Shown here one piece after another: positions 3,134-63,634 of a stretch of 64,000 bases of DNA. The stretch is from assembly GCF_040802235.1 (NCBI RefSeq), contig NC_133157.1, forward strand, positions 89,886,001-89,950,000, written 5' to 3'. A model generated the notes under the pieces. That model saw nothing but the letters and a program-made list of their open reading frames with translations. It ran no database searches and had not been told where the DNA came from. This stretch comes from Manis javanica (taxonomy: Eukaryota > Chordata > Mammalia > Pholidota > Manidae). A program made the translations under genes and the position numbers. Every line of letters begins with the position of its first letter. Within the stretch, counting starts at the first letter, position 1.

Positions 3134-3137
3134 GAAC
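3134..3137. repeat. Target-site duplication of solo LTR (GAAC, right)
   Basis: Four bases GAAC immediately after the LTR's CA end; identical to 2606-2609. Confidence 0.75.
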
Positions 3138-4386: not shown

Positions 4387-4413
4387 TTTTTTTTTGAGAG
4401 GGCATCTCTCATA

Positions 4414-4419
4414 TTTATT
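4414..4419 (-). terminator. AATAAA poly(A) signal of composite L1 copy 1
   Basis: TTTATT on the plus strand reads AATAAA in element sense, 18 nt upstream of the first A-tract. The same position is conserved in copies 2 and 3. Confidence 0.75.
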
Positions 4420-4544
4420 AATCAAATGGTTGTTAACAACAATAAAATTGAGTATGGGGGGTCAATGCTCAATGTACAATCATTAATCCATCTCAAGTCT
4501 AATTCTCGTCAGTCTCCAATCTTCTGAAGCATAACGAACAAGTT

Positions 4545-4552
4545 CTTATATA
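4545..4552 (-). promoter_or_regulatory. TATA box of the LTR-like segment (copy 1)
   Basis: TATATAAG on the minus strand, about 165 nt inside the U3 start and 130 nt before the AATAAA. This spacing suits a retroviral U3 promoter with a short R. Activity is not shown by sequence alone. Confidence 0.45.
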
Positions 4553-4717
4553 GTGAACGAATTCTTACATAGTGAATAAATTCTTACATGCTGAACAGTA
4601 CAAGGGCATTCATCACAGAAACTTTCGGTTTTGATCACGCATTATGACCTATAAACAATCAGGTCAAATATGAATATTCGTTTGATTTTTGTACTTGATT
4701 TATATGTTGATCCCACA

Positions 4718-4728
4718 TTTCTCCCTTT
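4718..4728 (-). other. Retroviral polypurine tract relic (copy 1)
   Basis: AAAGGGAGAAA on the minus strand immediately before TGTGGG, matching the usual plus-strand primer site next to U3. In copy 2 the tract is shortened by loss of Gs (31707 on). Confidence 0.6.
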
Positions 4729-5357
4729 ATTATTATTATTATTTTTATTTTTAATAAAATGCTGAAGTGGTAGGTAGATGCAAGATAAAGGTAGAAAACA
4801 TAGTTTAGTGCTGTAAGAGGGCAAATGTACATGATCAGATGATCAGGTGTGTGCCTATGGACTAAGTATTAATCCAGGCTAGACAACGGCAGCAAAACAT
4901 CCACGGATGCAGAAGATTTCTCTCAAAACAGGGGGGTGAGGTTCTGAGCCTCACCTCTGTTGATCCCCAAATTCTCACCTGATGGCCCCCCTGCGACTGT
5001 GCCTGTCTTAGGTTGTTCCTCCCTTGAGGAATCTTACCCGTCTCTGGCTAACCAGTCATCTTCCGGGGCCATACAGGGAAATGTAAAGTTGGTAAGTGAG
5101 AGAGAAGCCATATTGTTTGCAAAGGTTAGCTTTCTACTTCTTTGCAGATTTATGCCCTGTGGCTTCTATGCCCAGCACTTGTCTCGAGGTATCTTTACCA
5201 CTTGGAGGAATTATGATACTCGGTAAATTCGATATGAGGCACGAATTCTATTTAAGGGTTGTAATTAGGAAGAAAGAAGAAAAGCTACAGATGTAGCATA
5301 TGGAAGGAAACATGGGAGGATTGATTATTTCTTTGACATATCTTCTTGTAGAGTACC

Positions 5358-5810
5358 TTAAGTATGTATAGGTTTTAAACTACTAACTAATTTGCACACA
5401 CATATTAACATAATAGGAATACGATGACATAAACAAAGCAAATCTATAATTACCATCCATCTCCAGTGAAGCCAAGAAAACCATTTAGGCACCCTAGGCA
5501 TTTGTGAAAATTTGTCTATGATATGATGGATATTGTGCAACTGTACTTGAACAGTCTGAGAGAAATCAGACAAATTAAAGCAGCCCATTTCTGGGATCTG
5601 TTCACATCCCATATGTTCTTTTAACCGTAGATAGTCTATAGTCATAAGATTTTGGAGTGCTACACCTTGCACCCCTCCCAACTCCTGGTTGAGTTCCAAC
5701 AGTACAGATCCGGTCAAATTCGTTGTCTCACTGTATGCACATGCCAGCCTAGACATCTTCCTCCTCATTTCTATGGCAAGTCCAGGAGACGGTGGGCTGG
5801 ATGCAGCCAC
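5358..5810 (-). pseudogene. ERV Env transmembrane-subunit relic in L1 copy 1 tail
   Basis: A 150-codon open frame on the minus strand reads like the TM half of a retroviral envelope. Residues about 20-75 form a heptad-rich segment ending 'LQNLMTIDYL'. A disulfide-loop region 'GCEQIPEMGCF' follows, deviating from the usual CX6CC by a Gly at the first of the paired cysteines, then 'FNLSD'. A Trp-rich membrane-proximal stretch ('WFSWLHWRWM', about residue 110) and a hydrophobic Cys-rich segment close it. The surface subunit and much of the N-terminus are missing, so it cannot be a working envelope. It lies in the same sense as the L1 and upstream of a PPT and U3, the normal retroviral order. The CX6CC-type loop points to a gamma- or alpha-type Env. 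Homology is judged by motif only. Confidence 0.65.
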
Positions 5811-6209
5811 AACCGCAGCATCGTCCGGATCCCTGTGGAGGCATTTTGATGAACATCCCCTGGCACAAGTCCTTCAGAGAGTGCTGATGCCGGAAGCTCC
5901 TCCTCATATCGTATCTTAGTTCATTTTCTGGGTATCCAAGCTAGGCCTTGATCTTCTGCATAGAAACAAACAGACCCTTTGCCCACACTTTGACATGCCC
6001 TCTATACCATTGTGCAGATCTCATTGGAGGTCAGCACAGAGTAACTGCTTTTTTTCTTTTTTTAATTAAGAGAAAGGAATATTATCAGAAAAGAGTACCT
6101 CCATAGCTGATCATCTGACACCCTTTAAGTGATCAACATTAAGGATATTTAAAGCATGTGTTGATCTTTGATTTACCAATAGTTTTATCCTATCAAGGAG
6201 TAATCCCCC

Positions 6210-6254
6210 TTTTCTTTCTTTCTTTCTTTCATTCTTCTTTTTTTTTAATTTTTA
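6210..6254 (-). repeat. Internal A/GAAAG tract at the L1-ERV junction, copy 1
   Basis: Plus-strand T-rich run with (TTTC)n. In element sense it is an A-run followed by GAAAG repeats. It sits where related L1s in this window (1-1176 and 60756-60866) stop and have their poly(A). It is best read as the fossil tail of the ancestral L1, now internal. Confidence 0.7.
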
Positions 6255-6588
6255 ATCTATACCTACATGAAGAATACTATGTTTACTATGCTCTCCCCTA
6301 TATCAGGTCCCCCCTAACAACCACATTACGATTACTGTCCATCAGCTTAGCAAAATGTTGTAGAGTCACTACTTGTCCTCTCTGTGTTGTGCAGCCCACC
6401 CTCCCCTTTCTCCCTCCCCCCCATGCATGCTAATCTTAATACCCCCCTTCTTCTTCTCCCACCCTTATCCCTCCCTGCCCACCCATCCTCCCCAGTTCCT
6501 TTCCCTTTCATACCTGTTAGTCCATTTTTGGGTTCTGTAATTCCGCTGCTGTTTTGTTCCTTCAGTTTTTCCTTTGTTCCTATACTCC
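6255..6588 (-). mobile_element. Native L1 3' UTR with polypurine tract, copy 1
   Basis: In element sense it runs from the ORF2 stop to the fossil A-tract. The plus-strand stretch 6395-6510 is almost pure pyrimidine, so the RNA has a long G/A-rich tract, a general feature of mammalian L1 3' UTRs often linked to G-quadruplex formation. Confidence 0.7.
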
Positions 6589-9500
6589 TCAGATGAGTGA
6601 AATCATTTGGTATTTCTCTTTCTCCGCTTGGCTTATTTCACTGAGCATAATACTCTCCAGCTCCATCCATGTTGCTGCAAATGGTTGGATTTATCCACTT
6701 CTTATGGCTGAGTAGTATTCCATTGTGTATATATACCACATCTTATTTATCCATTCATCTACCGATGGACATTTAGGTTGCTTCCAATTCTTGGCTATTG
6801 TAAATAGTGCTGCGAAAAACATAGGGGTGCAAATGTCTTTCTCAAACTTGATTGCTTGTTCTTAGGGTAAATTCCTAGGAGTGGAATTCCTGGGTCAAAT
6901 GGTAGGTCTGTTTTGAGCATTTTGATGAACCTCCATACTGCTTTCCACAATGGTTGAACTAATTTACATTCCCACCAGCAGTGTAGGAGGGTTCCCCTTT
7001 CTCCACAGCCCCGCCAACATTTGTTGTTGTTTGTCTTTTGGATGGCAGCTATCCTTACTGGTGTGAGGTGATACCTCATTGTAGTTTTAATTTGCATTTC
7101 TCTGATAATTAGCAATGTGGAGCATCTTTTCATGTGTCTGTTGGCCATCTGTATTTCTTTTTTGGAGAACTGTCTGTTCAGTTCCTCTGCCCATTTTTTA
7201 ATTGGGTTATTTGTTTTTTGTTTGTTGAGGCGTGTGAGCTCTTTATATATTCTGGACGTCAAGCCTTTATCGGATCTGTCATTTTCAAATATATTCTCCC
7301 ATACTGTAGGGTTCCTTTTTGTTCTATTGATGGTGTCTTTCGCTGTACAGAAGCTTTTCAGCTTAATGTAGTCCCACTTGCTCATTTTTGCTGTTGTTTT
7401 CCTTGCCCGGGGAGATATGTTCAAGAAGAGGTCACTCATGTTTATGTCTAAGAGGTTTTTGCCTATGTTTTTTTCCAAGAGTTTAATGGTTTCATGACTT
7501 ACATTTAGGTCTTTGACCCATTTTGAGTTTACCTTTGTATATGGGGTTAGACAATGGTCCAGTTTCATTCTCCTACATGTAGCTGTCCAGTTTTGCCAGC
7601 ACCATCTGTTGAAGAGACTGTCATTTTGCCATTGTATGTCCATGGCTCCTTTATCAAATATTAATTGACCATATATGTTTGGGTTAATGTCTGGAGTCTC
7701 TAATCTGTTCCACTGGTCTGTGGCTCTGTTCTTGTGCCAGTACAAAATTGTCTTGATTACTATGGCTTTGTAGTAGAGCTTGAAGTTGGGGAGTGAGATC
7801 CCCCCTACTTTATTCTTCTTTTTCAGGATTGCTTTGGCTATTCGGGGTCTTTGGTGTTTCCATATGAATTTTTGAATTATTTGTTCCAATTCATTGAAGA
7901 ATGTTGCTGGTGATTTGAGAGGGATTGCATCAAATCTGTATATTGCTGTGGGCAAGACGGCCATTTAGACGATATTAATTCTTCCTAGCCATGAGCATGG
8001 GATGAGTTTCCATTTATTAGTGTCCCCTTTCATTTCTCTTAAGAGTGACTTGTAGTTTTCAGAGTATAGATCTTTCACTTCTTTGGTTAAGTTTATTCCT
8101 AGGTATTTTATTCGTTTTGATGCAATGGTGAATGGAATTGTTTTCCTGATTTCTCTTTCTATTGATTCATTGTTAGTGTATAGGAAAGCTACAGATTTCT
8201 GTGTGTTAATTTTGTATCCTGCAACTTTGCTGTATTCTGATATCAGTTCTAGTAGTTTTGGAGTGGAGTCTTTAGGGTTTTTTATGTACAGTATCATATC
8301 ATCTGCAAATAGTGAGAGTTTAACTTCTTCTTTATCAATCTGGATTCCTTGTATTTCTTTGTTTTGTCTGATTGCCGTGGCTAGGACCTCCAGTACTATG
8401 TTAAATAACAGTGGGGAGAGTGGGCTTCCCTGTCTAGTTCCTGATCTCAGAGGAAATGCTTTCAGCTTCTCACTGTTCATTATAATGCTGGCTGTGGGTT
8501 TATCACATATGGCCTTTATTATGTTGAGGTAGTTTCCCTCTATTCCCATTTTGCTGAGAGTTTTTATCATGAATGGATGTTGAATTTTGTCAAATGCTTT
8601 TTCAGCATCAATGGAGATGATCATGTGGTTTTTGTCCTTCTTTTTGTTGATGTGGTGGATGATGTTGATGGATTTTCGAATGTTGTACCATCCTTGCATC
8701 CCTGGGATGAATCCCACTTGGTCATGGTGTATGAACCTTTTGATATACTGTTGAATTCTGTTTGCTAATATTTTATTGAGTATTTTTGCATCTACATTCA
8801 TCAGGGATATTGGTCTGTAATTTTCTTTTTTGGTGGGGTCTTTGCCTGGTTTTGGTATTAGGGTGATGTTGGCCTCATAGAATGAGTTTGGGAGTATTCC
8901 TTCTTCTTCTATTTTTTGGAACACTTTAAGGAGAATGGGGATTATGTCTTCTCTGTGTGTCTGATAAAATTCCGAGGTAAATCCGTCCGGCCCCGGGGTT
9001 TTGTTCTTGGGTAGTTTTTTGATTACCGTTTCAATTTCTTTGCTCGTAATTGGTTTGTTTAACTTTTGTGTTTCTTCCTTGGTCAGTCTTGGGAGGTTGT
9101 ATTTTTCTAGGAAGTTGTCCATTTCTTCTAGGTTTTCCAGCTTGTTGGCATATAGGTTTTCATAGTAGTCTTTAATAATTCTTTGTATTTCTGTGGAGTC
9201 TGTCGTGATTTTTCCATTCTCATTTCTGATTATGCTGATTTGTGTTGATTCTCTTTTTCTCTTAATAAGTTGGGCTAGAGGCTTATCTATTTTGTTTATT
9301 TTCTCAAAGAACCAGCTCTTGGTTTCATTGATTTTTGCTATTGTTTTATTCTTCTTAATTTTGTTTATTTCTTCTCTGATCTTTATTATGTCCCTCCTTG
9401 TGCTGACTTTAGGCCTCATTTGTTCTTCTTTTTCCAGTTTTGAAAATTGTGATGTTAGACTATTCATTTGGGATTGTTCTTCCTTCTTCAAGTGTGCCTG

Positions 9501-10430
9501 GATTGCTATATACGTTCCTCTTAAGACTGCTTTCGCTGCATTCCACAGAAGTTGGGGCTTAGTGTTGTTGTTTTCATTTGTTTCTATATATTCCTTGATC
9601 TCTATTTTGATTTGTTCATTGATCCATTGATTATTTAGTAGCATGTTTTTAAGCCTCCATGTGTTTGTGAGCCTTTTTGTTTTCTTTGTAGCATTTATTT
9701 CTGCTTTTATACCTTTGTGGTCTGAAAAATTGGTTGGTAGAATTTCAATATTTTGGAGTTTACTGAGGCTCTTTTTGTGAGCTAGTATGTGGTCTATTCT
9801 GGAGAATGTTCCATGTGCACTTGAGAAGAATGTATATCCTGTTGCTTTTGGATGTAGAGTTCTATAGATGTCTATTAGGTCCATCTGTTCTAGGGTGTTG
9901 TTCAGTGCCTCTGTGTCCTTACTTATTTTCTGCCCGGTGGATCTATCCTTCGGGGTGAGTGGTGTGTTGAAGTCTCCTAAAATGAATGCATTGCAGTCTA
10001 TTTCCCTCTTTAGTTCTGTTAGTACTTGCTTCACATATGCTGGTGCTCCTGTATTGGGTGCATGTATATTTAGAATGGTTATATCCTCTTATTGGACTGA
10101 GCCTTTTATCATTATGTAGTGTCCTTCTTTATCTCTTGTTACTTTCTTTGTTTTGAGGTCTATTTTGTCTGATATTAGTACTGCAACCCCTGCTTTCTTC
10201 TCACTGTTGTTTGCCTGAAATATGTTTTTCCATCCTTTGACTTTTAGTCTGTGCTTGTCTTTGTGTTGTAGGTGAGTTTCTTGTAAGCAGCATATAGATG
10301 GGTCTTGCTTTTTTATCCATTCTATTACTCTGTGTCTTTTGATTGGTGCATTAAGTCCATTTACATTTAGGGTGACTATTGAGAGATATGTACTTATTGC
10401 CATTGCCGGCTTTAGATTCGTGGTTACCAA
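6589..10430 (-). pseudogene. L1 ORF2 (endonuclease-reverse transcriptase), copy 1, broken
   Basis: ORF2p nicks target DNA and reverse-transcribes L1 RNA at the nick. Compared with copy 2 the frame is interrupted by a Gln-to-stop change near 10095 (endonuclease domain), a Lys-to-stop change at 7965-7967 (after the RT domain), and a 1-nt loss near 6855 that shifts the C-terminus. Visible domains are: an N-terminal AP-type endonuclease (LNVNGLN, QETHL, GDFN, RIDHIL, SDHKG motifs), the Z/RT region with 'TPGPDGF', 'IDAEKAFD' and the catalytic 'FADD', and a C-terminal Cys/His cluster (CX3CX7HCX3C-type). Expected intact length is about 1,280 residues. Confidence 0.9.
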
Positions 10431-10550
10431 AGGTTCAAGGTTAGCTTCTTTAGTATCTTACTGCCTAACTTAGCTCGCTTATTGAGCTGTTATATACACT
10501 GTCTGGAGATTCTTTTCTTCTCTCCCTTCTTATTCCTCCTCCTCCATTCT

Positions 10551-11488
10551 TCATATGTTGTGTGTTTTGTTCTGTGCTCTTTTTAGGGGTGCTCCCATCT
10601 AGAGCAGTCCCTGTAGGATGCCCTGTAGAGGTGGTTTGTGGGAAGCAAATTCCCTCAGCTTTTGCTTGTCTGGGAATTGTTTAATCCCGCCATCATATTT
10701 AAATGATAGTCGTTGTGGATACAGTATCCTTGGTTCAAGGCCCTTCTGTTTCATTGCATTAAGTATATCATACCATTCTCTTCTGGCCTGTAGGGTTTCT
10801 GTCGAGAAGTCTGATGTTAGCCTGATGGGTTTTCCTTTTAGGTGACCTTTTTCTCTCTAGCTGCCTTTAAAACTCTTTCCTTGTCCTTGATCCTTGCCAT
10901 TTTAATTACTATGTGTCTTGGTGTTGTTCTCCTTGGATCCTTTCTGTTGGTAGTTCTGTGTAATTCCATGGTGTGTTTGATTATTTCCTCCCCCAGTTTG
11001 GGGAAGTTTTCAGCAATTATTTCTTCAAAGAGACTTTCTATCCCTTTTCCTCTTTCTTCTTCTTCTGCTACCCATATAATACGAATATTATTCCTTTTGG
11101 CTTGGTCACATAGTTCTCTTAGTGTTGTTTCATTCCTGGAGATCCTTTTATCTCTCTCTATGTCAGCTTCTATACATTCTTGTTCTCTGGCTTCTATTCC
11201 TTCAATGGCCTCTTGCATCTTATCCATTCTGCTTATAAATCCTTCCAGGGATTTTTTCACTTCTGTGATCTCCTTCGTGACATCTGTGATCTCCCTCCTG
11301 ACTTCATCCCACTGCTCTTGCATTTTTCTCTGCATCTCATCCCATTGCTCTTGCATTTTTCTCTGCATCTCTGTCAGCATGTTCATGATTTTTATTTTGA
11401 ATTCTTTTTCAGGAGGACTGGTTTGGTCTGTCTCCTTCTCAGGTGTTGTCTCTGTGATCTTTGTCTGCCTGTAGTTTTGTCTTTTCAT
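10551..11488 (-). pseudogene. L1 ORF1 (RNA-binding coiled-coil protein), copy 1, frameshifted
   Basis: Starts at the Met of 'MKRQNYRQTK' (11488), the same start as intact ORF1 in copy 2. It encodes the N-terminal region, coiled coil and RRM, but one missing base near 10842 creates a stop right after 'REKKVT', deleting the C-terminal domain. The coiled coil has two 33-bp 'MQRKMQEQWDE' units versus three in copy 2. Without the C-terminal domain the product would not be expected to bind RNA normally (inference from the L1 family). Confidence 0.85.
11304..11369 (-). repeat. Two 33-bp coiled-coil repeats in ORF1, copy 1
   Basis: Tandem units 11304-11336 and 11337-11369, each encoding 11 residues (MQRKMQEQWDE). 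They differ by one base. Copy 2 has a third unit. Confidence 0.9.
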
Positions 11489-12462
11489 GGTGATAGAGAT
11501 AGTGTGTAGAGCTGGTACAAGTGGCCCCTGGAAGAGCTTCCCTTCTTGTTGGTTTGTGGCCTTCCTCACCTGGGAGAATAGCGACCTCTAGTGGCTTGTG
11601 CTGGGCAGCTGTGTGCAGACAGGGCTTCTACTTCCTGCCCGGTTGCTATGGGGTTTATCTCCGCTGTTGCTGTGGGCGTGGCCTAGCTGGGGCTGCTCCT
11701 CCAAAATGGTGGAGCCCCGTTGGAAGGGGAGCGGCTGGGAGGCTATTTATCTCCGTAAGGGGCCTCTGTGCTCCCTGCTGCCCAGGGGGTTAGAGTGCCC
11801 AGAGATCCCCCGATTCCCTGCCTCTGGTCTAAGTGACCTGTCCTGCCCCTTTAAGACTTCCAAAAAGCACTCTCCAAACCAAAAGAACAGCAACAATTAG
11901 AGAGGGAACAGAAAAAAAAAAAAAAGGAAAAAACACATGATTTTTTTTTTGTCCTCATGCGCCGGTCCCAGGCACCCGCTCACTGGTCCTGCTGCCCTGC
12001 CTCCCTAGCACCAGGGTCCCTGTCCCTTTAAGGCTTCCAAAAAGCACTCGCCAGAAAGAGAAAAAAAAAGGGGAAAAACGTGCGATTTCCTCCGTCCTCA
12101 AGTGCCGGTCTCAGGCACCCACTCACCGGTCCCGCCACCCTGCCTCCCTAGCAACGGGGTCCCTGTCCCTTTAAGGCTTCCAAAAAGCATTCGCCAAAAA
12201 AAAAAAAAAAACCGCTCCGGTTTCTTTCCACCCGCCGGGAGCCAGGGGGAGGGGTGCTCGGGTGCCACCAGGCCAGGGCTTGTATCTTACCCCCTTCGCA
12301 AGGCGCTGGGTTCTTGCAGGTGTGGATGTGGTCTAGATGTTGTCCTGTGTCCTGTGGTCTCTATTTTAGGAAGATTTTTCTTTGTTATATTTTCATAGCT
12401 CTATGTGTTTTTGGGAGGAGATTTCCACTGCTCTGCTCACGCTGCCATCTTGGCTCTGCCTC
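11489..12462 (-). promoter_or_regulatory. L1 5' UTR promoter region with two monomers, copy 1
   Basis: About 974 bp of GC-rich DNA between the element's 5' end and ORF1. Two tandem monomers begin (plus strand) at 11951 and 12093, spacing 142 bp, each with 'ccctgtccctttaaggcttc' and an A-rich linker. By analogy with monomer-type mouse L1 promoters this is probably the Pol II promoter. Copy 2 has about 625 bp more here, equal to three 208-bp units. Confidence 0.75.
12443..12453 (-). promoter_or_regulatory. YY1-like site at L1 5' end, copy 1
   Basis: CCAAGATGGCA on the minus strand, about 10 nt from the element's first base. A YY1 site of core AAGATGGC at the same position sets accurate initiation in human L1. 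Function here is by analogy. Confidence 0.6.
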
Positions 12463-12478
12463 CTCTCTGCCTTCTTTT
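12463..12478. repeat. Probable target-site duplication (5' side) of L1 copy 1
   Basis: 'ctctctgccttctttt' directly after the element's 5' end and before AAAG. Its partner is at 4321-4345 with a 'ctg' difference. Confidence 0.55.
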
Positions 12479-13710
12479 AAAGAAATTATATTTATCTTTA
12501 ATTTTCAGAGGCTTGATTATGCTATGTCCTGATGTGGGTTCTTTGAATTTATCCTGTTTATGATTTGTTCAGTTCTTGAATCTATAGGTTTATGTTTTTT
12601 GCCAAATTTGGGGAGAATTTTCAGCTCTTACTTGTTTGAATACTTTCTGGCTCCATTTTCTTTTCCTTCTGGGGAATTTGTGACATGAATGTTAGATCTT
12701 CTGTTATTGTTCCTTATTGAGGCTCTGCTCAATTTTTTTTCATTTGTTTCCTCTGTTATTCAGATTGGGTAGTTTCTACTGTTTTATCTTCAAGTTCACT
12801 ATTTATTTCCTCTTTCCACTACCTTTTCATTGTGAATCCATCCTTTGAGTTTTTATTTTGGCTGTTGTATATTCTCAAGCTCTAAAATTTCCGCTTGATT
12901 CTTCTGATTTCTTTATTTCAGTTGTGCTCATAGCTGCTCATTAAAAAGTTTTGATGATGGAGGCTTTAAAACCCTTGTCGGATCATTCAGCGCCCATGTC
13001 ATCATGTGGATATGGTGTCTGTTGATTATTTTTCTTGTTAGTTTGAGATCTTCCTGGGTTTTTGTATAAAAGGTGATTTTCTTAAACCTACTCATTTTGT
13101 ATATTATGTTGAAGAATCTGGATCTTATTTAAATTTTACATTTTATCAGGCTTTCTCTGACATCACTCTGATGGGTGAGAGAATCTCACCTACTACCACC
13201 AGGCAGGATGAAAGATCAAGCTTCCACTTGTCATTTTGGCGAGGCAGTGGGTACTCTTTACTTCTGGGGTGCGTGGGAGGTCAGGCCTCCCACAGGCTCT
13301 GCTGACCTGTCCTGGCTAGGAGGTGGGAGGCCCTCACAGGACCTGGCAAGGGTGGGAGTCTGGGCTCTCCACTGGGGCTTGGCTGCTGGCGTGGGGGAGA
13401 GGAAAGGGACCACAGTTTCTTCTGAACTATTTAGCTAGAACAGAGCTGTTTTTGTCTAAAAGTTGCCTGTACTGCGGCTATATTGAGCATGCTTTCTTTT
13501 GTCTGCACAAAATGTCTGTGGGTTTTCAGGTTCTCCAGAGCCCAGTCTGGGATGTAGAGGCCACTGTGTCATTTCTTGGGTCCGAATGTCCCCTGGTCAC
13601 CTTTCTTCTCTCCACTTGTCTTAAGTCTGTTTATATATAACAGCCAGGTGCTTTAGTTGTACTTATATGTTTGGGAAAAGTCATCTGCTCCACCTTCCAG
13701 GAAGTGGAAG
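12479..13710 (-). mobile_element. Old L1 / HAL1-like relic
   Basis: T-rich plus strand with phrases typical of antisense old L1, such as 'ttttggctgttgtatattc' near 12860 and 'ctccaccttccaggaagtgg' near 13690. In minus sense that last phrase resembles the 5' part of ancient L1M/HAL1 elements. It has no open frame. The assignment is by recall of general L1M/HAL1 sequence, and the segment may consist of more than one piece. Confidence 0.5.
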
Positions 13711-30372: not shown

Positions 30373-31361
30373 GTGCTCTAGCTTGGAGTCTCAGCCTTTA
30401 GAGTTGCTTACTCTGGGTATCAAGATGTGGACGATCACTTATTCCAAAACCTTGGTTAATATCCTCTGCTAAAACCAACAGCTAAATCCAGTAAGGTCCT
30501 AGAGAAAACAAACTAATTTTTAAAAGCTCCTTCTATCCTTTGAAAAGTGATAAAAAATTAATATCAAACAAATGCCCAATTTCTGATTTTTCAAAATGTT
30601 TAAACAAGATTTTATCTGTTACCGTGACAACCAAGAGCTTCATAAATTTTTTCTAGCTTCTGATATTTTCTAGAATGTATCTGCATTTTGGTGTCTTTTT
30701 AACAATTTTGAGATGACAATAGTAAAGAAATTGTTTTATGGGCTTGTGGGGGTGTGGTAGGAAATTATATTGGTGCCTTTGTTTTCCATTGTGAGACATT
30801 TTAAATAAATCTTTATATTTAATGTGCACATTAAATGTCCCATTTGCTTTGCTCACCATCTAATTAAATCATTGTGATAAGCAAACTGACTTTATCAAAA
30901 ATCTGCTGACTTAATTAAAACTTCCGGAGACGGTAAAATCATGTCTTTAAGTGAAATTGACAGTCTTAAGAACTTGTATTAAAAAGTGGTTAAGCTGAAA
31001 ATGATGAGAAAAATTTCTGAATTAAGTAACTGGTAATGAAAAGCAAAATAAATCCCAAGATTGCAAAAAGGAGATAATAAGCACAGAAATAAAAAGATCT
31101 CATGGAAAATCAACAATGTGAAAGGTTGCTTCTTTGAAAATATGTACAAGATTTGGGTGATCATATGCTTGCTTTCCCCAAGATAGTCCCAATTTCCCCC
31201 TGCTGTCTGGTGTCACCTTCCATTTAGTTACATCTCTGACTACTGATTGTTAATTAAACATAATTATTCACAGTTGAATTCTGTTAATCCAGCATGAGTT
31301 TGGTAAACCTCCGCTTTGTATCAGTAGCTTCTTCCAGGGTCTCAAGTGTGTGCCATTGAAC
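30373..31361. other. No recognised feature; AT-rich
   Basis: AT-rich intergenic DNA leading to the insertion site of L1 copy 2. Confidence 0.5.
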
Positions 31362-31375
31362 AGAATTCTCATTTT
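31362..31375. repeat. Target-site duplication (3' side) of composite L1 copy 2
   Basis: 'agaattctcatttt' is identical to 40088-40101. At the far side it is followed by AATG, so the pre-insertion plus strand read TTTT/AATG, a canonical L1 endonuclease cleavage site for a minus-strand insertion. Confidence 0.95.
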
Positions 31376-31384
31376 TTTTTTTTT

Positions 31385-31706
31385 GAGAGGGCATCTCTCA
31401 TATTTATTGATCAAATGGTTGTTAATAACAATAAAATTCAGTATGGGGGGACAACGCTCAATGTACAATCATTAATCCATCTCAAGCCTAATTCTCGTCA
31501 GTCTCCAATCTTCTGAAGCATAACAAACAAGTTCTTATATGGTGAACGAATTCTTACGTAGTGAATAAATTCTTACATGGTGCACCGTACAAGGGCATTC
31601 ATCACAGAAACTTTCGGTTTTGATCATGCATTATGACCTATAAACAATCAGGTCAAATATGAATATTCGTTTGATTTTTGTACTTGATTTATATGTTGAT
31701 CCCACA
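31385..31706 (-). mobile_element. LTR-like U3-R segment ending L1 copy 2
   Basis: 322 bp, same length as copy 1 (4396-4717). Starts TGTGGGATC in element sense and ends CTCTC before the poly(A). Holds a TATATAAG-type box changed to CATATAAG (31540-31534) and AATAAA (31408-31403). Confidence 0.7.
31403..31408 (-). terminator. AATAAA poly(A) signal of composite L1 copy 2
   Basis: 18 nt before the poly(A) in element sense, same position as in copy 1. Confidence 0.75.
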
Positions 31707-32340
31707 TTTCTCCTATTATTATTATTATTTTTATTTTTAATAAAATGCTGAAGTGGTAGGTAGATGCAAGATAAAGGTAGAAAACATAGTTTAGTGCTGT
31801 AAGAAGGCAAATGTAGATGATCAGATGATCAGGTGTGTGCCTATGGACTAAGTATTAATCCAGGCTAGACAAGGGCAGCAAGACATCCACGGATGCAGAT
31901 TTCTCTCAAAGCAGGGGGGGTGAGGTTCTGAGCCTCACCTCTGTTGATCCCCAAATTCTCACCTGATGGCCCCCCTGCGACTGTGCCTGTCTTAGGTTGT
32001 TCCTCCCTTGAGGAATCTTACCCGTCTCTGGCTAACCAGTCATCTTCCGGGGCCATACAGGGAAATGTAAAGTTGGTAAGTGAGAGAGAAGCCATATTGT
32101 TTGGAAAGGTTAGCTTTTTACTTCTTTGCAGATTTATGCCCTGTGGCTTCTATGCCCAGCACTTGTCTCGAGGTATCTTTACCACCTGGAGGAATTATGA
32201 TACTCGGTAAATTCGATATGAGGCACGAATTCTATTTAAGGGTTGTAATTAGGAAGGAAGAAGAAAAGCTCTAGATGTAGCATATGAAGGAAACATGGGA
32301 GGATTGATTATTTCTTTGACATATCTTCTTGTATAGTACC

Positions 32341-32782
32341 TTAAGTATGTATAGGTTTTAAACTACTAACTAATTTGCACACACATATTAACATAATAGG
32401 AATACGCTGACATAAACAAGGCAAATCTATAATTACCATCCATCTCCAGTGAAGCCAAGAAAACCATTTAGGCACCCTAGGCATTTGTGAAAAATTTTTT
32501 ATGATATGATGGATATTGTCCAACTGTACTTGAACCATCAGACAAATTAAAGCAGCCCATTTCTGGGATTTTTTCACATCCCATATGTTCTTTTAACCAC
32601 AGATAGTCTACAGTCATAAGATTTTGGAGTGCTACAACTTGCACCCCTCCCAACTCCTGGTTGAGTTCCAACAGTACAGATCCGGTCAAATTCGTTGTCT
32701 CACTGTATGCACATGCCAGCCTAGACATCTCCCTCCTCATTCCTATGGCAAGTCCAGGAGACGGTGGGCTGGATGCAGCCAC
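32341..32782 (-). pseudogene. ERV Env transmembrane-subunit relic in L1 copy 2 tail, frameshifted
   Basis: Same Env TM relic as 5358-5810, in the same position and sense. Here an 11-bp loss near 32537 and other small changes split it into two overlapping frames (32477-32782 and 32341-32577). It keeps the heptad-rich block, the loop 'GCEKIPEMGCF' with the same Gly deviation as copy 1, and the Trp-rich membrane-proximal end. The shared deviation means it was present in the tail of their common ancestor. Neither copy is under evident selection to stay open. Confidence 0.65.
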
Positions 32783-33177
32783 AACCGCAGCATCGTCCGG
32801 ATCCCTGTGTAGGCTTTTTGATGATCATTCCCCGGCACAAGTCCTCCAGAGAGTGCTGATGCCGGAAGCTCCTCCTCATATCGTATCTTAGTTCATTTTC
32901 TGGGTATCCAAGCTAGGCCTTGATCTTCTGCATAGAAACAAACAGACCCTTTGCCCACACTTTGGCATGCCCTCTATACCACTGTGCAGAACTCACTGGA
33001 GGTCAGCACACAGTAACTGCTTTTTTTTTTTTTTAATTAAGAGAAAGGAATATTATCAGAAAAGAGTACCTCCATAGCTGATCATCTGACACCCTTTAAG
33101 TGATCAACATTAAGGATATTTAAAGCATGCGTTGATCTTTGATTTACCAATAGTTTTATCCTGTTAAGGAGTAATCC

Positions 33178-33224
33178 CCCTTTTCTTTCTTTCTTTCTTT
33201 TTTTTTTTTTTTTAAATTTTTAAT
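33178..33224 (-). repeat. Internal A/GAAAG tract at L1-ERV junction, copy 2
   Basis: Same position as 6210-6254 in copy 1: A-run plus (GAAA)n in element sense, between the native L1 3' UTR and the tail. A second, shorter A-run in the tail (33021-33032; 6050-6063 in copy 1) may mark another joining step. Confidence 0.7.
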
Positions 33225-33555
33225 CTACACTTACATGAAGAATACTATATTTACTATGCTCTCCCCTATATCAGGTCCCCCCTAACAACCACATTACGGT
33301 TACTGTCCATCAGCTTAGCAAAATGTTGTAGAGTCACTACTTGTCCTCTCTGTGTTGTGCAGCCCACCCTCCCCTTTCTCCATCCCCGCCATGCATGCTA
33401 ATCTTAATACTCCCCTTCTTCTCCCCCCCCCTTATCCCTCCCTGCCCACCCATCCTCCCCAGTTCCTTTCCCTTTGGAACATGTTAGTCCATTTTTGGGT
33501 TCTGTAATTCCGCTGCTGTTTTGTTCCTTCAGTTTTTCCTTTGTTCCTATACTCC
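33225..33555 (-). mobile_element. Native L1 3' UTR with polypurine tract, copy 2
   Basis: From the ancestral ORF2 stop to the fossil A-tract. The 33360-33475 plus strand is nearly all pyrimidine, giving a G-rich purine tract in L1 RNA. Confidence 0.7.
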
Positions 33556-36500
33556 TCAGATGAGTGAAATCATTTGGTATTTTTCTTTCTCCGCTTGGCT
33601 TATTTCACTGAGCATAATACTCTCCAGCTCCATCCATGTTGCTGCAAATGGTTGGATTTTTCCACTTCTTATGGCTGAGTAGTATTCCATTGTGTATATG
33701 TACCACATTTTCTTTATCCATTCATCTACCGATGGACATTTAGGTTGCTTCCAATTCTTGGCTATTGTAAATAGTGCTGCGATAAACATAGGAGTGCATC
33801 TGTCTTTCTCAAACTTGATTGCTGCATTCTTAGGGTAAATTCCTAGGAGTGGAATTCCTGGGTCAAATGGTAGGTCTGTTTTGAGCATTTTGATGCACCT
33901 CCATACTGCTTTCCAGTTGAACTAATTTACATTCCCACCAGCAGTGTAGGAGGGTTCCCCTTTCTCCACAGCCTCGCCAACATTTGTTGTTGTTTGTCTT
34001 TTGGATGGCAGCTATCCTTACTGGTGTGAGGTGATACCTCATTGTAGTTTTAATTTGCATTTCTCTGATAATTAGAAATGTGGAGCATCTTTTCATGTGT
34101 CTGTTGGCCATCTGTATTTCTTTTTTGGAGAACTGTCTGTTCAGTTCCTCTGCCCATTTTTTAATTGGGTTATTTGTTTTTTGTTTGTTGAGGCGTGTGA
34201 GCTCTTTATATATTCTGGACGTCAAGCCTTTATCGGATCTGTCATTTTCAAACATATTCTCCCATACTGTAGGGTTCCTTTTTGTTCTATTGATGGTGTC
34301 TTTCGCTGTACAGAAGCTTTTCAGCTTAATGTAGTCCCACTTGCTCATTTTTGCTGTTGTTTTCCTTGCCCGGGGAGATATGTTCAAGAAGAGGTCACTC
34401 ATGTTTATGTCTAAGAGGTTTTTGCCTATGTTTTTTTCCAAGAGTTTAATGGTTTCATGACTTACATTCAGGTCTTTGATCCATTTTGAGTTTACCTTTG
34501 TATATGGGGTTAGACAATGGTCCAGTTTCATTCTCCTACATGTAGCTGTCCAGTTTTGCCAGCACCATCTGTTAAAGAGACTGTCATTTTGCCATTGTAT
34601 GTCCATGGCTCCTTTATCAAATATTAATTGACCATATATGTTTGGGTTAATTTCTGGGGTCTCTAATCTGTTCCACTGGTCTGTGGTTCTGTTCTTGTGC
34701 CAGTACCAAATTGTCTTGATTACTATGGCTTTGTAGTAGAGCTTGAAGTTGGGGAGTGAGATCCCCCCTACTTTATTCTTCTTTTTCAGAATTGTTTTGG
34801 CTATTCGGGGTCTTTGGTGTTTCCATATGAATTTTTGAATTATTTGTTCCAATTCATTGAAGAATGTTGCTGGTAATTTGAGAGGGATTGCATCAAATCT
34901 GTATATTGCTTTGGGCAGGATGGCCATTTTGACGATATTAATTCTTCCTAGCCATGAGCATGGGATGAGTTTCCATTTATTAGTGTCCCCTTTAATTTCT
35001 CTTAAGAGTGACTTGTAGTTTTCAGAGTATAAGTCTTTCACTTCTTTGGTTAGGTTTATTCCTAGGTACTTTATTCTTTTTGATGCAATGGTGAATGGAA
35101 TTGTTTTCCTGATTTCTCTTTCTATTGATTCATTGTTAGTGTATAGGAAAGCTACAGATTTCTGTGTGTTAATTTTGTATCCTGCAACTTTGCTGTATTC
35201 CGATATCAGTTCTAGTAGTTTTGGAGTGGAGTCTTTAGGGTTTTTTATGTACAGTATCATATCATCTGCAAATAGTGAGAGTTTAACTTCTTCTTTATCA
35301 ATCTGGATTCCTTGTATTTCTTTGTTTTGTCTGATTGCCGTGGCTAGGATCTCCAGAACTATGTTAAATAACAGTGGGGAGAGTGGGCATCCCTGTCTGG
35401 TTCCTGATCTCAGAGGAAATGCTTTCAGCTTCTCGCTGTTCAGTATAATGCTGGCTGTGGGTGTATCATATATGGCCTTTATTATGTTGAGGTAGTTTCC
35501 CTCTATTCCCATTTTGCTGAGAGTTTTTATCATGAATGGATGTTGAATTTTGTCAAATGCTTTTTCAGCATCTATGGAGATGATCATGTGGTTTTTGTCT
35601 TTCTTTTTGTTGATGTGGTGGATGATGTTGATGGATTTTCGAATGTTGTACCATCTTTTCATCCCTGGGATGAACCCCACTTGGTCATGGTGTATGATCC
35701 TTTTGATATACTGTTGAATTCTGTTTGCTAATATTTTATTGAGTATTTTTACATCTACATACATCAGGGATATTGGTCTGTAATTTTCTTTTTTGGTGGG
35801 GTCTTTGCCTGGTTTTGGTATTAGGGTGATGTTGGCCTCATAGAATGAGTTTGGGAGTATTCCCTCTTCTTCTATTTTTTGGAACACTTTAAGGAGAATG
35901 GGTGTTATGTCTTCTCTGTGTGTCTGATAAAATTCCGAGGTAAATCCGTCCGGCCCCGGGGTTTTGTTCTTGGGTAGTTTTTTGATTACTGTTTCAATTT
36001 CTTTGCTTGTAATTGGTTTGTTTAACTTTTGTGTTTCTTCCTTGGTCAGTCTTGGGAGGTTGTATTTTTCTAGGAAGTTGTCCATTTCTTCTAGGTTTTC
36101 CAGCTTGTTGGCATATAGGTTTTCATAGTAGTCTTTAATAATTCTTTGTATTTCTGTGGAGTCTGTCGTGATTTTTCCATTCTCATTTCTGATTATGTTG
36201 ATTTGTGTTGATTCTCTTTTTCTCTTAATAAGTTGGGCTAGAGGCTTATCTATTTTGTTTATTTTCTCAAAGAACCAGCTCTTGGTTTCGTTGATTTTTG
36301 CTATTGTTTTATTCTTCTCAATTTTGTTTATTTCTTCTCTGATCTTTATTATGTCCCTCCTTCTGCTGACTTTAGGCCTCATTTGTTCTTCTTTTTCCAG
36401 TTTTAATAATTGTGACGTTAGACTATTCATTTGGGATTGTTCTTCCTTCTTCAAGTGTGCCTGGATTGCTATATACTTTCCTCTTAAGACTGCTTTCGCT

Positions 36501-37393
36501 GCATCCCACAGAAGTTGGGGCTTAGTGTTGTTGTTGTCATTTGTTTCTATATATTCCTTGATCTCTATTTTGATTTGTTCATTGATCCATTGATTATTTA
36601 GTAGCATGTTGTTAAGCCTCCATGTGTTTGTGAGCCTTTTTGTTTTCTTTGTAGAATTTATTTCTACTTTCATACCTTTGTGGTCTGAAAAATTGGTTGG
36701 TAGAATTTCAATATTTTGGAATTTACTGAGGCTCTTTTTGTGAGCTAGTATGTGGTCTATTCTGGAGAATGTTCCATGTGCACTTGAGAAGAATGTATAT
36801 CCTGTTGCTTTTGGATGTAGAGTTCTATAGATGTCTATTAAGTCCATCTGTTCTAGTGTGTTGTTCAGTGCCTGTGTGTCTTTACTTATTTTCTGCCCGG
36901 TGGATCTATCCTTTGGGGTGAGTGGTGTGTTGAAGTCTCCTACAATGAATGCATTGCAGTCTATTTCCGTCTTTAGTTCTGTTAGTATTTGCTTCACATA
37001 TGCTGGTGCTCCTGTATTGGGTGCATATATATTTAGAATGGTTAAATTCTCTTGTTGGACTGAGCCCTTTATCATTATGTAGTATCCTTCTTTATCTCTT
37101 GTTACTTTCTTTGTTTTGAAGTCTATTTTGTCTGATATTAGTACTGCAACCCCTGCTTTCTTCTCACTGTTGTTTGCCTGAAATATGTTTTTCCATCCCT
37201 TGACTTTTAGTCTATGCTTATCTTTGGGTTTAAGGTGAGTTTCTTGTAAGCAGCATATAGATGGGTCTTGCTTTTTTATCCATTCTATTACTCTATGTCT
37301 TTTGATTGGTGCATTAAGTCCATTTACATTTAGGGTGACTATTGAGAGATATGTACTTATTGCCATTGCAGGCTTTAGATTCGTGGTTACCAA
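33556..37393 (-). pseudogene. L1 ORF2 (endonuclease-reverse transcriptase), copy 2, C-terminal frameshift
   Basis: Open for 1,176 codons from 37393 to 33863. Endonuclease residues are all present: N24 (LNVNG), E51 (QETHL), Y123 (NIYAPN), D153/N155 (GDFN), D213 (SRIDH) and D237/H238 (SDH). The RT domain (about 470-780) has 'KTPGPDGF', 'LIPKPGKD', D608 ([10 protein letters not shown]) and FADD at 708-711. The C-terminal Cys/His cluster is at 1138-1155. Compared with copy 1, 5 bp are missing at 33915/33916. This shifts the frame 17 codons before a premature stop and removes about 104 residues, which persist in another frame down to 33556. Catalytic domains are otherwise complete, so residual activity is possible but not shown. 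Confidence 0.92.
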
Positions 37394-37513
37394 AGGTTCA
37401 AGGTTAGCTTCTTTAGTATCTTACTGCCTAACTTAGCTCGCTTACTGAGCTGTTATATACACTGTCTGGAGATTCTTTTCTTCTCTCCCTTCTTATTCCT
37501 CCTCCTCCATTCT

Positions 37514-38485
37514 TCATATGTTGTGTGTTTTGTTCTGTGCTCTTTTTAGGGGTGCTCCCTTGTAGAGCAGTCCCTGTAGGACGCCCTGTAGAGGTGGTTT
37601 GTGGGGAGCAAATTCCCTCAGCTTTTGCTTGTCTGGGAATTGTTTAATCCCGCCATCATATTTAAATGATAGTTGTGCTGGATACAGTATCCTTGGTTCA
37701 AGGCCCTTCTGTTTCATTGCATTAAGTATATCATGCCATTCTCTTCTGGCCTGTAGGGTTTCTGTTGAGAAGTCTGATGTTAGCCTGATGGGTTTTCCTT
37801 TATAGGTGACCTTTTTCTCTCTAGCTGCCTTTAAAACTCTTTCCTTGTCCTTGATCCTTGCCATTTTAATTACTATGTGTCTTGGTGTTGTCCTCCTTGG
37901 ATCCTTTCTGTTGGTAGTTCTGTGTAATTCCATGGTCTGTTCGATTATTTCCTCCCCCAGTTTGGGGAAGTTTTCAGCAATTATTTCTTCAAAGACACTT
38001 TCTATCCCTTTTCCTCTTTCTTCCTCTTCTGGTATCCCTATAATACGAATGTTTTTCCTTTTGTATTGGTCACATATTTCTCTTAGTGTTGTTTCATTCC
38101 TGGAGATCCTTTTATCTCTCTCTGTGTCAGCTTCTATACGTTCCTGTTCTCTGGCTTCTATTCCTTCAATGGCCTCTTGCATCTTATCCATTCTGCTTAT
38201 AAATCCTTCCAGGGATTGTTTCACTTCTGTGATCTCCTTCCTGACATCTGTGATCTCCTTCCGGACTTCATCCCACTGCTCTTGCATTTTTCTCTGCATC
38301 TCATCCCACTGCTCTTGCATTTTTCTCTGCATCTCATCCCATTGCTCTTGCATTTTTTTCTGCATCTCTGTCAGCATGTTCATGATTTTTATTTTGAATT
38401 CTTTTTCAGGAGGACTAGTTAGGTCTGTCTCCTTCTCAGGTGTTGTCTCTGTGATCTTTGTCTGCCTGTAGTTTTGCCTTTTCAT
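37514..38485 (-). CDS. L1 ORF1 protein, intact, copy 2
   Basis: Complete 323-residue frame, start at 38485 (MKRQNYRQ), stop TGA at 37516-37514, 120 bp before the ORF2 start. ORF1p is the trimeric RNA-binding chaperone of the L1 RNP. Residues about 30-135 form a long charged coiled coil with three tandem 11-residue units (MQ[KR]KMQEQWDE, 41-73). An RRM spans about 144-226 (RNP-like 'IRIIGIPE' and 'TPRHIVIKMA'). The C-terminal domain spans about 227-291, with 'ILYPAQLSF' near 266-274. The length is close to human ORF1p (338). No lesions seen, unlike copy 1. Confidence 0.92.
   Translation of the reverse strand: MKRQNYRQTKITETTPEKETDLTSPPEKEFKIKIMNMLTEMQKKMQEQWDEMQRKMQEQWDEMQRKMQEQWDEVRKEITDVRKEITEVKQSLEGFISRMDKMQEAIEGIEAREQERIEADTERDKRISRNETTLREICDQYKRKNIRIIGIPEEEERGKGIESVFEEIIAENFPKLGEEIIEQTMELHRTTNRKDPRRTTPRHIVIKMARIKDKERVLKAAREKKVTYKGKPIRLTSDFSTETLQARREWHDILNAMKQKGLEPRILYPAQLSFKYDGGIKQFPDKQKLREFAPHKPPLQGVLQGLLYKGAPLKRAQNKTHNI
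38268..38366 (-). repeat. Three 33-bp coiled-coil repeats in ORF1, copy 2
   Basis: Units at 38268-38300, 38301-38333 and 38334-38366. The first two are identical and the third differs at two bases. Copy 1 has two units, so this is a recent in-frame gain or loss. Confidence 0.92.
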
Positions 38486-38960
38486 GGTGATAGAGATAGT
38501 CTGCAGAGCTGGTACAAGTGACTGCTGGAAGAGCTTCCCTTCTTGTTGGTTTGTAGCCTTTTCCTGGGAGAATAGCGACCTCTAGTGGCTTGTGCTGGGC
38601 AGCTGTGCGCAGACAGGGCTTCTGCTTCCTGCCCAGTTGCTTTGGGGTTTATCTCCACTGTTGCTGTGGGCTTGGCCTGGCTGGGGCTGTTCCTCCAAAA
38701 TGGTGGAGCCCCGTTGGAGGGGGAGCAGCCAGGAGACTATTTATCTCCGTAAGGGGCCTCTGTGCTCCCTGCTGCCCAAGGGGTTAGAGTGCCCAGAGAT
38801 CCCCAGATTCCCTGCCTCTGGTCTAAGTGACCTGTCCTGCCCCTTTAAGACTTCCAAAAAGCACTCTCAAAACCAAAACAACAACAGCAACAATGAGAGA
38901 GGGAACAGAAAGGAAAAAAAAAAAGGAAAAAACATGCGATTTTTTTTTTTTTTTTTTTTT

Positions 38961-39830
38961 GTCCTCAGGTGCCGGTCCCAGGTACCCGCTCACTGGTCCT
39001 GCTGCCCTGTCTCCCTAGCACCAGGGTCCCTGTCCTTTCAAGGCTTCCAAAAAGCACCCACCCACCGGTCCCGCAGGGAAGGAACGCTTGATATTCTTTG
39101 TCCTCAGGTGCTGGTCCCAGGCACCCGCTCACCAGTCCCGCCGCCCTGCCTCCCTAGCACCGGGGTCCCTGTCCCTTTAAGGTTTCCAAAAAGCACTCGC
39201 CAAAAGAGAGAAAAAAAGGGGAAAAACACGCGATTTCCTCCGTCCTCAGGTGCTGGTCTCAGGCACCCGCCCACCGGTCCCACAGGGAAAAACGCGCGAT
39301 ATTCTTTGTCCTCAGGCTTCAGTCCCAGGCACCCGCTCACCAGTCCCACCGCCCTGCCTCCCTAGCACCGGGGTCCCTGTCCCATTTAGGCTTCCAAAAA
39401 GCACTCGCAAAAAAGATTTAAAAAAAGGGGAAAAACGCGCGATTTCCTCTGTCCTCAAGTGCTGGTCTCAGGCACCCGCTCCCCGGTCCTGCAGGGAAAA
39501 ACGTGGGATATTCTTTGTCCTCAGGCGCTGGTCCCAGGCACCCGCTCACCAGTCCCGCCACCCTGCCTCCCTAGCACCGGGGTCCCTGTCCCTTTAAGGC
39601 TTTCAAAAAGTGCTCGCCAAAAAGAGAAAAAAAAAGGGGAAAAAAGCGCGATTTCCTCCATCCTCAGGCGCCGGTCTCAGGCAACCGCCCGCCGGTTCCA
39701 CAGGGAGAAACGCGGGATATTCTTTGTCCTCAGGTGCCGGTCCCAGGCACCTGCTCACTGGTCCCGCCACCCTGCCTCCCTAGCAACGGGGTCCCGTCCC
39801 TTTAAGGCTTCCAAAAAGCACTCACCAAAA
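38961..39830 (-). repeat. L1 5' UTR monomer array, copy 2
   Basis: On the plus strand, starts of the 'gtcctcagg' motif lie at 38961, 39100, 39242, 39308, 39451, 39517, 39660 and 39726. This gives a 208-bp higher-order unit made of a long (~143 bp) and a short (~66 bp) subunit, repeated about three times plus partial ends. Long subunits carry 'cctgtccctttaaggcttcc'; short ones carry 'cacagggaaaaacgcg'. Copy 1 has only two long subunits. Confidence 0.9.
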
Positions 39831-40065
39831 AAAAAACCGCACCAGTTTCTTTCCGCCCACCGGGAGCCGGGGGGAGGGGCGCTCGGGTCCCGCCGGGCTG
39901 GGGCTTGTATCTTACCCCCTTCACAAGGCACTGGATTCTTGCAGGTGTGGATGTGGTCTGGATGTTGTCCTGTGTCCTGTGGTCTCTATTTTAGGAAGAT
40001 TTTTCTTTGGTATATTTTCATAGCTCTATGTGTTTTTGAGAGGAGATTTCCACTGCTCTACTCAC

Positions 40066-40076
40066 GCCGCCATCCT
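40066..40076 (-). promoter_or_regulatory. YY1-like site at L1 5' end, copy 2
   Basis: CAGGATGGCGG on the minus strand near the first base of the element. The core differs by one base from the AAGATGGC of copy 1. Confidence 0.5.
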
Positions 40077-40087
40077 GGCTCCGCCCC

Positions 40088-40101
40088 AGAATTCTCATTT
40101 T
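40088..40101. repeat. Target-site duplication (5' side) of composite L1 copy 2
   Basis: 'agaattctcatttt', identical to 31362-31375; followed by AATG. Confidence 0.95.
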
Positions 40102-62935: not shown

Positions 62936-63320
62936 AAAAAAACAAGGATTCTCTCACTTACCAACTTCACATTTCCCTGTATGGCCCCGGAAATTGACTG
63001 GTTAGCCAGAGACGGGTAAGATTCCTCAAAGGAAGAACAACCTAAGACAGGCACAGTCGCAGGGGGGCCATCAGGTGAGAAATTGGGGATCAACAGAGGT
63101 GAGGCTTAGAACCTCACCCCCCCTGTTTTGAGAGAAATCTTCTGCATCTGTGGAGGTTTTGTTGCCCTTATCTAGCTTGGATTAATACTTAGTCTAGAGG
63201 CACAGACCTGATCATCTACATTAGCCCTCTTACAGCACTAAACTATGTTTTCTAACTTTATCTTGAATCTACCTACCACTTCAGCATTTTATTAAAATAA
63301 TAATAATAATAAGGGAGAAA

Positions 63321-63634
63321 TGTGGGATTCACATATAAATCAAGTATAAAAATCAAACGAATAATCATATTTGACCTGATTGTTTATAGTTCATGATGCA
63401 TGATCAAAATCGAAAGTTTCTGTGATGACTGCCCTTGCACTGTTCACCATGTAAGAACTTATTCACTATGTAAAAACTTGTTCACCATGTAAGAACTTGT
63501 TCGTTATGCTTCAGAAGATTGGAGACTGTTGAGAATTAGGCTTGGGGTTGATTAATGATTATGCATTGAGTCCCCTATACAGAATTTTATTGTTGTTAAC
63601 AACCATATGATCAATAAATGAGAGATGCCCTCTC
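63321..63634 (+). mobile_element. LTR-like U3-R segment within copy 3
   Basis: 314 bp from TGTGGG to the last CTCTC before the poly(A), matching 4717-4396 and 31706-31385. Confidence 0.7.
63613..63618 (+). terminator. AATAAA poly(A) signal, copy 3
   Basis: AATAAA 16 nt before the A12 tract, conserved with copies 1 and 2. Confidence 0.75.

Follow-up and report, generated by a model that had tools for sequence, protein, structure and literature searches.

The window analysed here, a stretch of 64,000 nucleotides of the Malayan pangolin genome (second contig, 89886001-89950000), contains two full-length L1 elements that continue beyond their native 3' end into a tail of retroviral appearance. 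How did an L1 come to end in parts of an ERV, and is the arrangement confined to this locus or the property of an L1 family? Our analysis indicated that the Malayan pangolin very probably harbours an L1 family with RNA that terminates in a captured retroviral 3' module, a chimera that would have originated by read-through, replaced its ancestors and drawn an advantage from the LTR and the CTE. The L1 ORFs, env-TM, half CTE, polypurine tract (PPT) and U3-R are copied as one unit ending at the retroviral poly(A) site, and this unit is found in thousands of places.

Self-comparison of the window placed both L1s on the minus strand, copy A as an L1 at 12485-6256 with a tail running to 4396 and copy B as an L1 plus tail at 40085-31385, with 95.5% identity over 7875 columns. 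The tails alone (A, 6254-4396; B, 33222-31385) were 95.8% identical over 1860 columns, confirming the claim of a preliminary description that the two L1s extend past the native 3' end into an env-PPT-LTR tail. Copy C showed 88.8% identity to tail A. In L1 sense, the tail consists of the native 3' end, an A/GAAA tract, a segment termed seg2, a second A tract, env/TM, a CTE half-unit, the PPT, TGTGGG, AATAAA, CTCTC and poly(A), and the coordinates in tail A agree with the retroviral order that had been described (Env TM-like frame, polypurine tract, TGTGGG, and AATAAA before the poly(A)). The features of the window are as follows.

6256..12485, minus strand: body of L1 copy A, with 5' UTR carrying tandem monomers, ORF1, ORF2 and native 3' UTR; ORFs broken
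6210..6250, minus strand: junction tract at the native L1 3' end, composed of an A run and (GAAA)n; identical junction in 22/22 aligned copies
6068..6209, minus strand: seg2, a 150-bp segment; missing in 1/68 sampled copies (L046)
6049..6067, minus strand: second A tract, with AATAAA inside in most aligned copies
from 6048, minus strand: start of the env piece, which includes the TM frame
5358..5873, minus strand: Env TM-like frame; the portion 5738-5535 matches the ASLV TM in PDB
4995..5057, minus strand: CTE half-unit with one internal loop, AAGACA/AGAGAC, flanked by ACCU/GGGU and GGC/GCC
4718..4728, minus strand: polypurine tract, read in the sequence; the CTE-PPT-TGT order recurs in ERV pieces L033, L037, L039 and L041
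4396..4717, minus strand: U3-R of an LTR, with TGTGGG start, AATAAA at 4419-4414 and CTCTC end at 4400-4396, without U5
4387..4395, minus strand: poly(A) of copy A, read in the sequence
33223..40085, minus strand: body of L1 copy B; ORF1 (323 codons) and ORF2 (1167 codons) open
31385..33222, minus strand: tail of copy B, 95.8% identical to tail A
40087..40101, minus strand: target duplication of copy B, 5' side, 15 bp
31361..31375, minus strand: target duplication of copy B, 3' side, 15 bp
62937..63634, plus strand: copy C, tail-only and 5'-truncated; CTE half-unit and U3-R, then poly(A)

The 15-bp target duplication of copy B lies outside the L1 together with its tail, and no clear target duplication was seen for copy A (best match 6 bp). 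Older L1 pieces without the tail matched the L1 body at 8-1124 (76.5%), 49922-50697 (76.2%) and 60758-60867 (74.5%), and all three end at, or close to, the native L1 3' end; the first and the last are the two tail-less relatives that had already been reported, and the middle one is an addition. Read in the sequence, the native L1 end has no AATAAA and the new tail end has one. The L1 5' UTRs (38941-39828 and 11931-12276) contain tandem monomers of about 209 bp whose number differs between the two copies and which recall the promoter monomers of mouse L1. Elsewhere in the window, a 34-bp unit forms a tandem array at 29676-30453 whose minus strand holds several long open frames, and the stretch at 2613-3135, starting TGTGGGCTGGGG, resembles by eye a solo LTR of a different family.

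The nature of the body was evaluated on copy B by Pfam domain analysis. ORF1 contains the RBD-like and dsRBD-like domains (Transposase_22, 4.7e-24; Tnp_22_dsRBD, 1.5e-19), and ORF2 contains an endonuclease and a reverse transcriptase (Exo_endo_phos, 1.9e-23; RVT_1, 6.2e-46). The assembly of 2,559,957,944 bases in 63 contigs was then searched with the tail; the best 40 of 5513 first-look candidates were scored and were 95-100% identical, and 34 of these 40 reached tail position 1857 or further. Twenty places were fetched with their flanks and, having been picked among those most like copy A, they represent a young, biased sample. The complete order ORF1-ORF2-3'UTR-seg2-env-CTE-LTR was present in 17 of the 20, and L015, L018 and L030 contained only the 3' part of the unit. 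Together with A, B and C, all 23 copies share the same end base followed by poly(A), with different flanks. Moreover, 14 of 19 full-length copies have target duplications of variable length (9-19 bp; one with a mismatch, and the 9-bp one of L013 A-rich) around the L1 and its tail, the score being below 9 bp in the other five (A, L014, L024, L028 and L031). By its domains, target duplications and poly(A), the element is a true L1.

All 22 copies that reach the junction share it, with variation in tract length and one adjacent substitution in L032, and this identity leaves no problem of chance for the window. Pairwise tail divergence was 1.3-5.6% among 22 copies, 20 of which had been chosen for their likeness to copy A. 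Both ORFs are open at full length in one of the 19 full-length copies, and the label "autonomous" would depend on that one; in copy B, ORF1 is open and ORF2 is open for 1167 codons. At L030 (7467-9669), another, partial LTR piece (91%) directly follows a tail copy, which looks like the insertion of one tail into another.

The abundance of the chimera was assessed by short-word searches of the genome. A 15-mer at the seg2 start, on the junction side, had 12,596 matches with at most one mismatch (reversed control, 160), and a 15-mer of the native 3' UTR had 12,568 (control, 148). LINEs make up 35.41% of the Malayan pangolin genome, according to the part of the report available to us (PMC11825179). 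In the first 25.7 Mb of contig C1, 61 of 68 exact UTR sites were followed by an exact seg2 site at a distance of 87-318 bp (median 95). The remaining seven were fetched; six carried a mutated seg2 and then env, and in one (L046) the UTR A tract was joined straight to env. The tail was therefore present at 68/68 sampled 3' ends of the family in this region, and no tail-less member was found among them. In addition, 39 seg2 sites had no exact UTR partner, and 13 of these were fetched, of which 12 had a diverged UTR and one (L059) was cut at the A tract. The expectation set out beforehand, that the junction would occur in many copies with separate target duplications, agrees with these matches, with the junction in 22/22 copies and with the 14/19 duplications.

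Some of the sampled loci on C1 are near-identical neighbours (L049, L050 and L055; L052 and L053), so not all of them are independent insertions. These neighbours are what might speak for a local artefact, in which a duplication or an assembly error set the same ERV fragment beside two L1s, but the same junction recurs across many contigs, where both the flanks and the target duplications differ, making such an artefact exceedingly improbable. Separately, opposite-strand seg2 sites on C1 are repeatedly 4456 bp apart (1823162-1827618, 4500789-4505245 and 23476355-23480811), and this spacing points to a duplicated palindromic block of C1 that holds these L1s.

The one sampled copy without seg2 bears on how the junction was assembled. 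At L046, the UTR end AGATTAATGATT is closer to the tail-less relative at 60846-60859 than to the AGATTAAAAATT of young copies. We read L046 as an early form that may never have had seg2, loss of seg2 between the two A tracts being a possible alternative. Since L046 (1/68) joins the L1 end directly to env, the junction was probably built in two steps, in which the env-CTE-LTR piece would have been captured first; seg2, together with its own A tract, would have entered the junction A tract later. The locus (L046 and L081, C1:18746765-18748665) is the sole sampled copy without seg2 and perhaps retains the earliest form of the chimera.

Next to the junction, the env piece includes the TM frame. 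This frame matched the ASLV TM in PDB as a single sequence (E 1.6e-8), and a profile of the frame with 22 metagenome relatives gave E 1.4e-14; through this match the frame has the heptad/ISD region and CX6CC of a retroviral Env TM. By eye, CX6CC is complete in the metagenome relatives P0004, P0009 and P0011, and one Cys is lost in copy A. Pfam gave the frame no name, and its relative P0004 matched TLV_coat below the cut-off (E 0.016). No relatives were found in viral and prokaryote genome contigs, scans that may omit near relatives of the genome to which the window belongs. The frame is open for at least 164 codons in 19 of 22 copies, and pN/pS among copies was 0.62, which gives no strong sign of protein function.

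Behind TM, at 5057-4995, the tail resembles the constitutive transport element (CTE), which serves type D retroviruses as a signal for nuclear RNA export by NXF1. The AAGACA internal loop and the GGGU/ACCU stem of type D CTEs are both present, as one unit and not as two units in two-fold symmetry. Both CTE motifs, AACCTAAGACAGG and AGACGGGTAA, are shared with SRV-1 CTE primers printed in PMC4330393; as far as the accessible text of that paper goes, every CTE unit contains a conserved AAGACA loop, which accommodates one Tap-p15, and a halfmer CTE binds NXF1-NXT1 in vitro. The window has three occurrences of the two motifs in this order, in A, B and C, and none of 100 shuffles has any. Folding predicted that the loop forms with a probability of 0.90-0.97, also within a context of 451 bases. 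The wider CTE region was not unusually stable (z -1.24; 20/200 shuffles equally good), and the case for a CTE therefore rests on motif and loop identity. A search of the window against Rfam, which might hold no CTE family, returned nothing at the gathering score, and in the tail it returned only two sub-threshold snoRNA matches (E 3.4 and 6.1).

Conservation of the unit was examined in 43 aligned copies, including 20 from C1 loci of mixed age (83-97% identity to copy A), and AAGACA was intact in 43/43. Net divergence between young (22) and old (15) copies was 0.0008 at the CTE unit, compared with 0.0306 and 0.0688 in the next two stretches, and the CTE window had the lowest net divergence of 662 windows. 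Two other stretches were nearly as low (5125-5061, 0.0025; 4799-4727, 0.0011), and old-group diversity at the CTE was not extreme, with 5% of windows equally low; the apparent conservation of the CTE is thus suggestive and no proof.

To place the module among the ERVs of the same genome, class II ERVs were marked by their integrase C-terminal domains (150 scored of 2335 candidates), and nine 3-kb pieces downstream of such domains were fetched. With the whole tail as query, only the CTE region matched at E <1e-3 (L037, 1.0e-6; L040, 7.4e-6; L039, 5.4e-5); weaker matches (E 0.001 to 0.4) fell in the CTE of L033 and L041, and in A/T-rich or short stretches of L033, L034, L035 and L036. Four of the nine pieces (L037, L039, L040 and L041) contain two CTE units each and L033 contains one, and none was found in L034, L035, L036 and L038. 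Folding gave a two-fold CTE in L037 and L040, and in L041 the outer GGGU/ACCU stem had a probability near 0.5. In L033, L037, L039 and L041, the CTE is followed by a polypurine tract and an LTR start (TGTTGGG or TGTGGGG), as in the tail. Judged by eye, the tail unit appears to fuse the left portion of the first ERV unit with the right portion of the second and would amount to a half CTE. The nine pieces themselves were ruled out as donor, the CTE alone having matched at E <1e-3. Furthermore, open frames of exactly 883 codons contain 15 of the 150 scored integrase domains, and some other frames are longer, suggesting recent ERV activity in the Malayan pangolin.

A donor-type LTR was found with a genome pattern consisting of the R end followed by mostly non-A bases. 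The pattern matched eight places, five of which, on five contigs, share a AGCACCACT-like continuation. The one locus that was read (L082) runs through pre-PPT, PPT, TGTGGG and U3-R to CTCTC and then into U5-like sequence without poly(A), and its first 402 bases are 73.5-80.7% identical to the L1 tails, most to the older copy C. A 23-base U5 motif had 325 genome matches with at most three mismatches (control, 0). Among 100 listed U5 places there were at least eight pairs within 30 kb, all on the same strand, and four of these same-strand pairs were 6564, 6627, 7583 and 7764 bases apart, against an expectation of 0.008 pairs at 5-9 kb. The donor family thus has the PPT, TG start, U3-R, U5 and proviral-spacing pairs of an ERV LTR, and the L1 tail lacks the U5. 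We take the L082-type LTR to represent the putative donor ERV family, which is known from its LTRs and not from env. Among viral contigs, a 24-mer of the LTR end had no match; a 16-mer matched four (L001-L004), which were taken as chance.

The preliminary description had proposed that the tail would have ERV relatives and that a donor provirus could be located. The ASLV TM match, the CTE, PPT and LTR start in class II ERVs and the donor-type LTR with U5 bear out the former; for the latter, the LTR with U5 and the pairs at proviral spacing were obtained, which point to a putative donor by its LTRs. Neither of the outcomes named in advance as contradicting it, a tail without ERV relatives or a junction at two loci only, occurred. 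The same results bear on the idea that the tail is ordinary genomic DNA caught by read-through, retroviral in look by chance. Rfam and Pfam, which gave no confident match in the tail, would allow this, but the TM profile match, the recurrence of the CTE-PPT-TGT order in ERVs of the same genome, and an LTR that occurs 325 times with U5 and in pairs at proviral spacing leave it practically no credit.

A sense insertion of an L1 in env followed by read-through would account for the A tract at the junction, for a tail that begins within env and for its termination at the LTR poly(A) site. An L1 likely inserted in sense into the env of a class II provirus; transcription would then have passed the L1 end, which lacks AATAAA, and the RNA would have been cleaved at the 3' LTR poly(A) site, so that the capture would amount to a 3' transduction of about 1.65 kb. 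The earlier proposal of read-through from an L1 into a nearby ERV is supported in its mechanism; its geometry is amended, the junction lying inside env and not beside the ERV, and assembly having probably taken two steps. Seg2 as a separate step and the CTE are additions to what that proposal had noticed.

Template switching would be another route, in which the L1 enzyme, during target-primed reverse transcription, would have started at the poly(A) end of a retroviral RNA and then switched to the A tail of an L1 RNA, so that a single insertion joined the two. The junction A tract is as expected for such a switch, and the retroviral poly(A) site is where the tail terminates, but an L1 inserted with its own A tail in a provirus leaves identical marks, and 3' read-through is the commoner event. 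Moreover, an L1 in the required position is on record, as a nearly complete LINE-1 lies between ENV and the 3' LTR of ERV-Gamma.b9-Mpen of the Chinese pangolin in the portion of PMC12584738 that was available. We consider template switching unlikely. ERV-Gamma.b9-Mpen represents the kind of locus that the read-through origin needs and is the nearest published hint in the literature searched; it is an insertion in one gamma-type lineage, and the likeness is one of description, not of sequence.

After capture by read-through, the chimera would have replaced its tail-less ancestors. Its advantage may have lain in the standard poly(A) signal supplied by the LTR, and the half CTE may bind NXF1-NXT1 and so aid the nuclear exit of unspliced L1 RNA. 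The tail could also be a passenger, the chimera having spread through its ORFs or promoter without help from the CTE or LTR, and we give this close to an even chance. The pN/pS of the TM frame is compatible with a passenger, as is a CTE that is only a half-unit with a function predicted from sequence; against it, the tail is retained in old and young copies (83-97% to copy A) and at every one of the 68 sampled ends, and the CTE window has the lowest net divergence. As a tentative possibility, the half CTE might recruit NXF1 to the full-length RNA of the L1, either substituting for a native export signal or acting alongside it, and together with the viral poly(A) site this might explain the displacement of other L1s in the pangolin lineage.

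An NXF1-binding element in the human L1 3' UTR was reportedly proposed by Lindtner in 2002. As cited in the consulted part of PMC3045867, this is likewise an element proposed to act in export from the 3' end of L1 RNA, the human one being native to L1 and the pangolin one retroviral in origin. In SERV-K/MER11, a primate retrovirus, the export system was replaced by an LTR-derived CTE whose function was shown (PMC11379458, in the section at hand); this is likewise a retroelement that took up LTR-derived CTE sequence, although it is a retrovirus lineage with shown function and the pangolin element is an L1 with a predicted CTE. Both cases provide a precedent for a CTE benefit. In contrast, when a native CTE-like element was put back into an engineered human L1 that bears an intron, retrotransposition did not increase, as the available text of PMC3045867 has it, which counts against such a benefit. 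With the SRV-1 CTE of type D retroviruses (PMC4330393, as far as seen), the pangolin unit shares the AAGACA loop, the flanking stems, both strand motifs and the position between env and PPT; it differs in being one unit without two-fold symmetry, in residing within an L1 and not a virus, and in being known from sequence.

No description of an L1 family with such a tail was found in the literature searched (one collection; titles and abstract openings). The closest relatives in architecture are the hominoid SVA elements, whose SINE-R derives from HERV-K. SVA likewise ends in an ERV env-U3-R piece at a retroviral poly(A) site and is moved by the L1 machinery. However, SVA is a composite without ORFs that contains a VNTR, is moved in trans and depends on L1, whereas the pangolin ERV piece forms the 3' end of an L1 whose ORF1 and ORF2 are part of the unit, and its ERV has an ASLV/gamma-type TM and a CTE half-unit. 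The pangolin element carries its own ORFs and is therefore SVA-like at its 3' end, not an SVA. L1 3' transductions arise by the same read-through to a downstream poly(A) site and are copied with the L1; the pangolin piece differs from them in being a retroviral module, in its presence at all sampled ends and in belonging to a family of thousands.

L1s change their 5' ends; the pangolin case indicates that a LINE-1 can also exchange its own 3' end for viral parts and still multiply. With thousands of copies made after its 3' end gave way to a retroviral env-CTE-LTR module, this L1 represents a counterpart of SVA that brings its own enzymes. Two questions thereby become testable, namely whether the 3' end of an L1 can be exchanged freely and whether export from the nucleus is limiting for L1. 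Thousands of retroviral U3-R and CTE pieces have been spread in this genome without a retrovirus moving them, and repeat and ERV counts in pangolins must allow for that.
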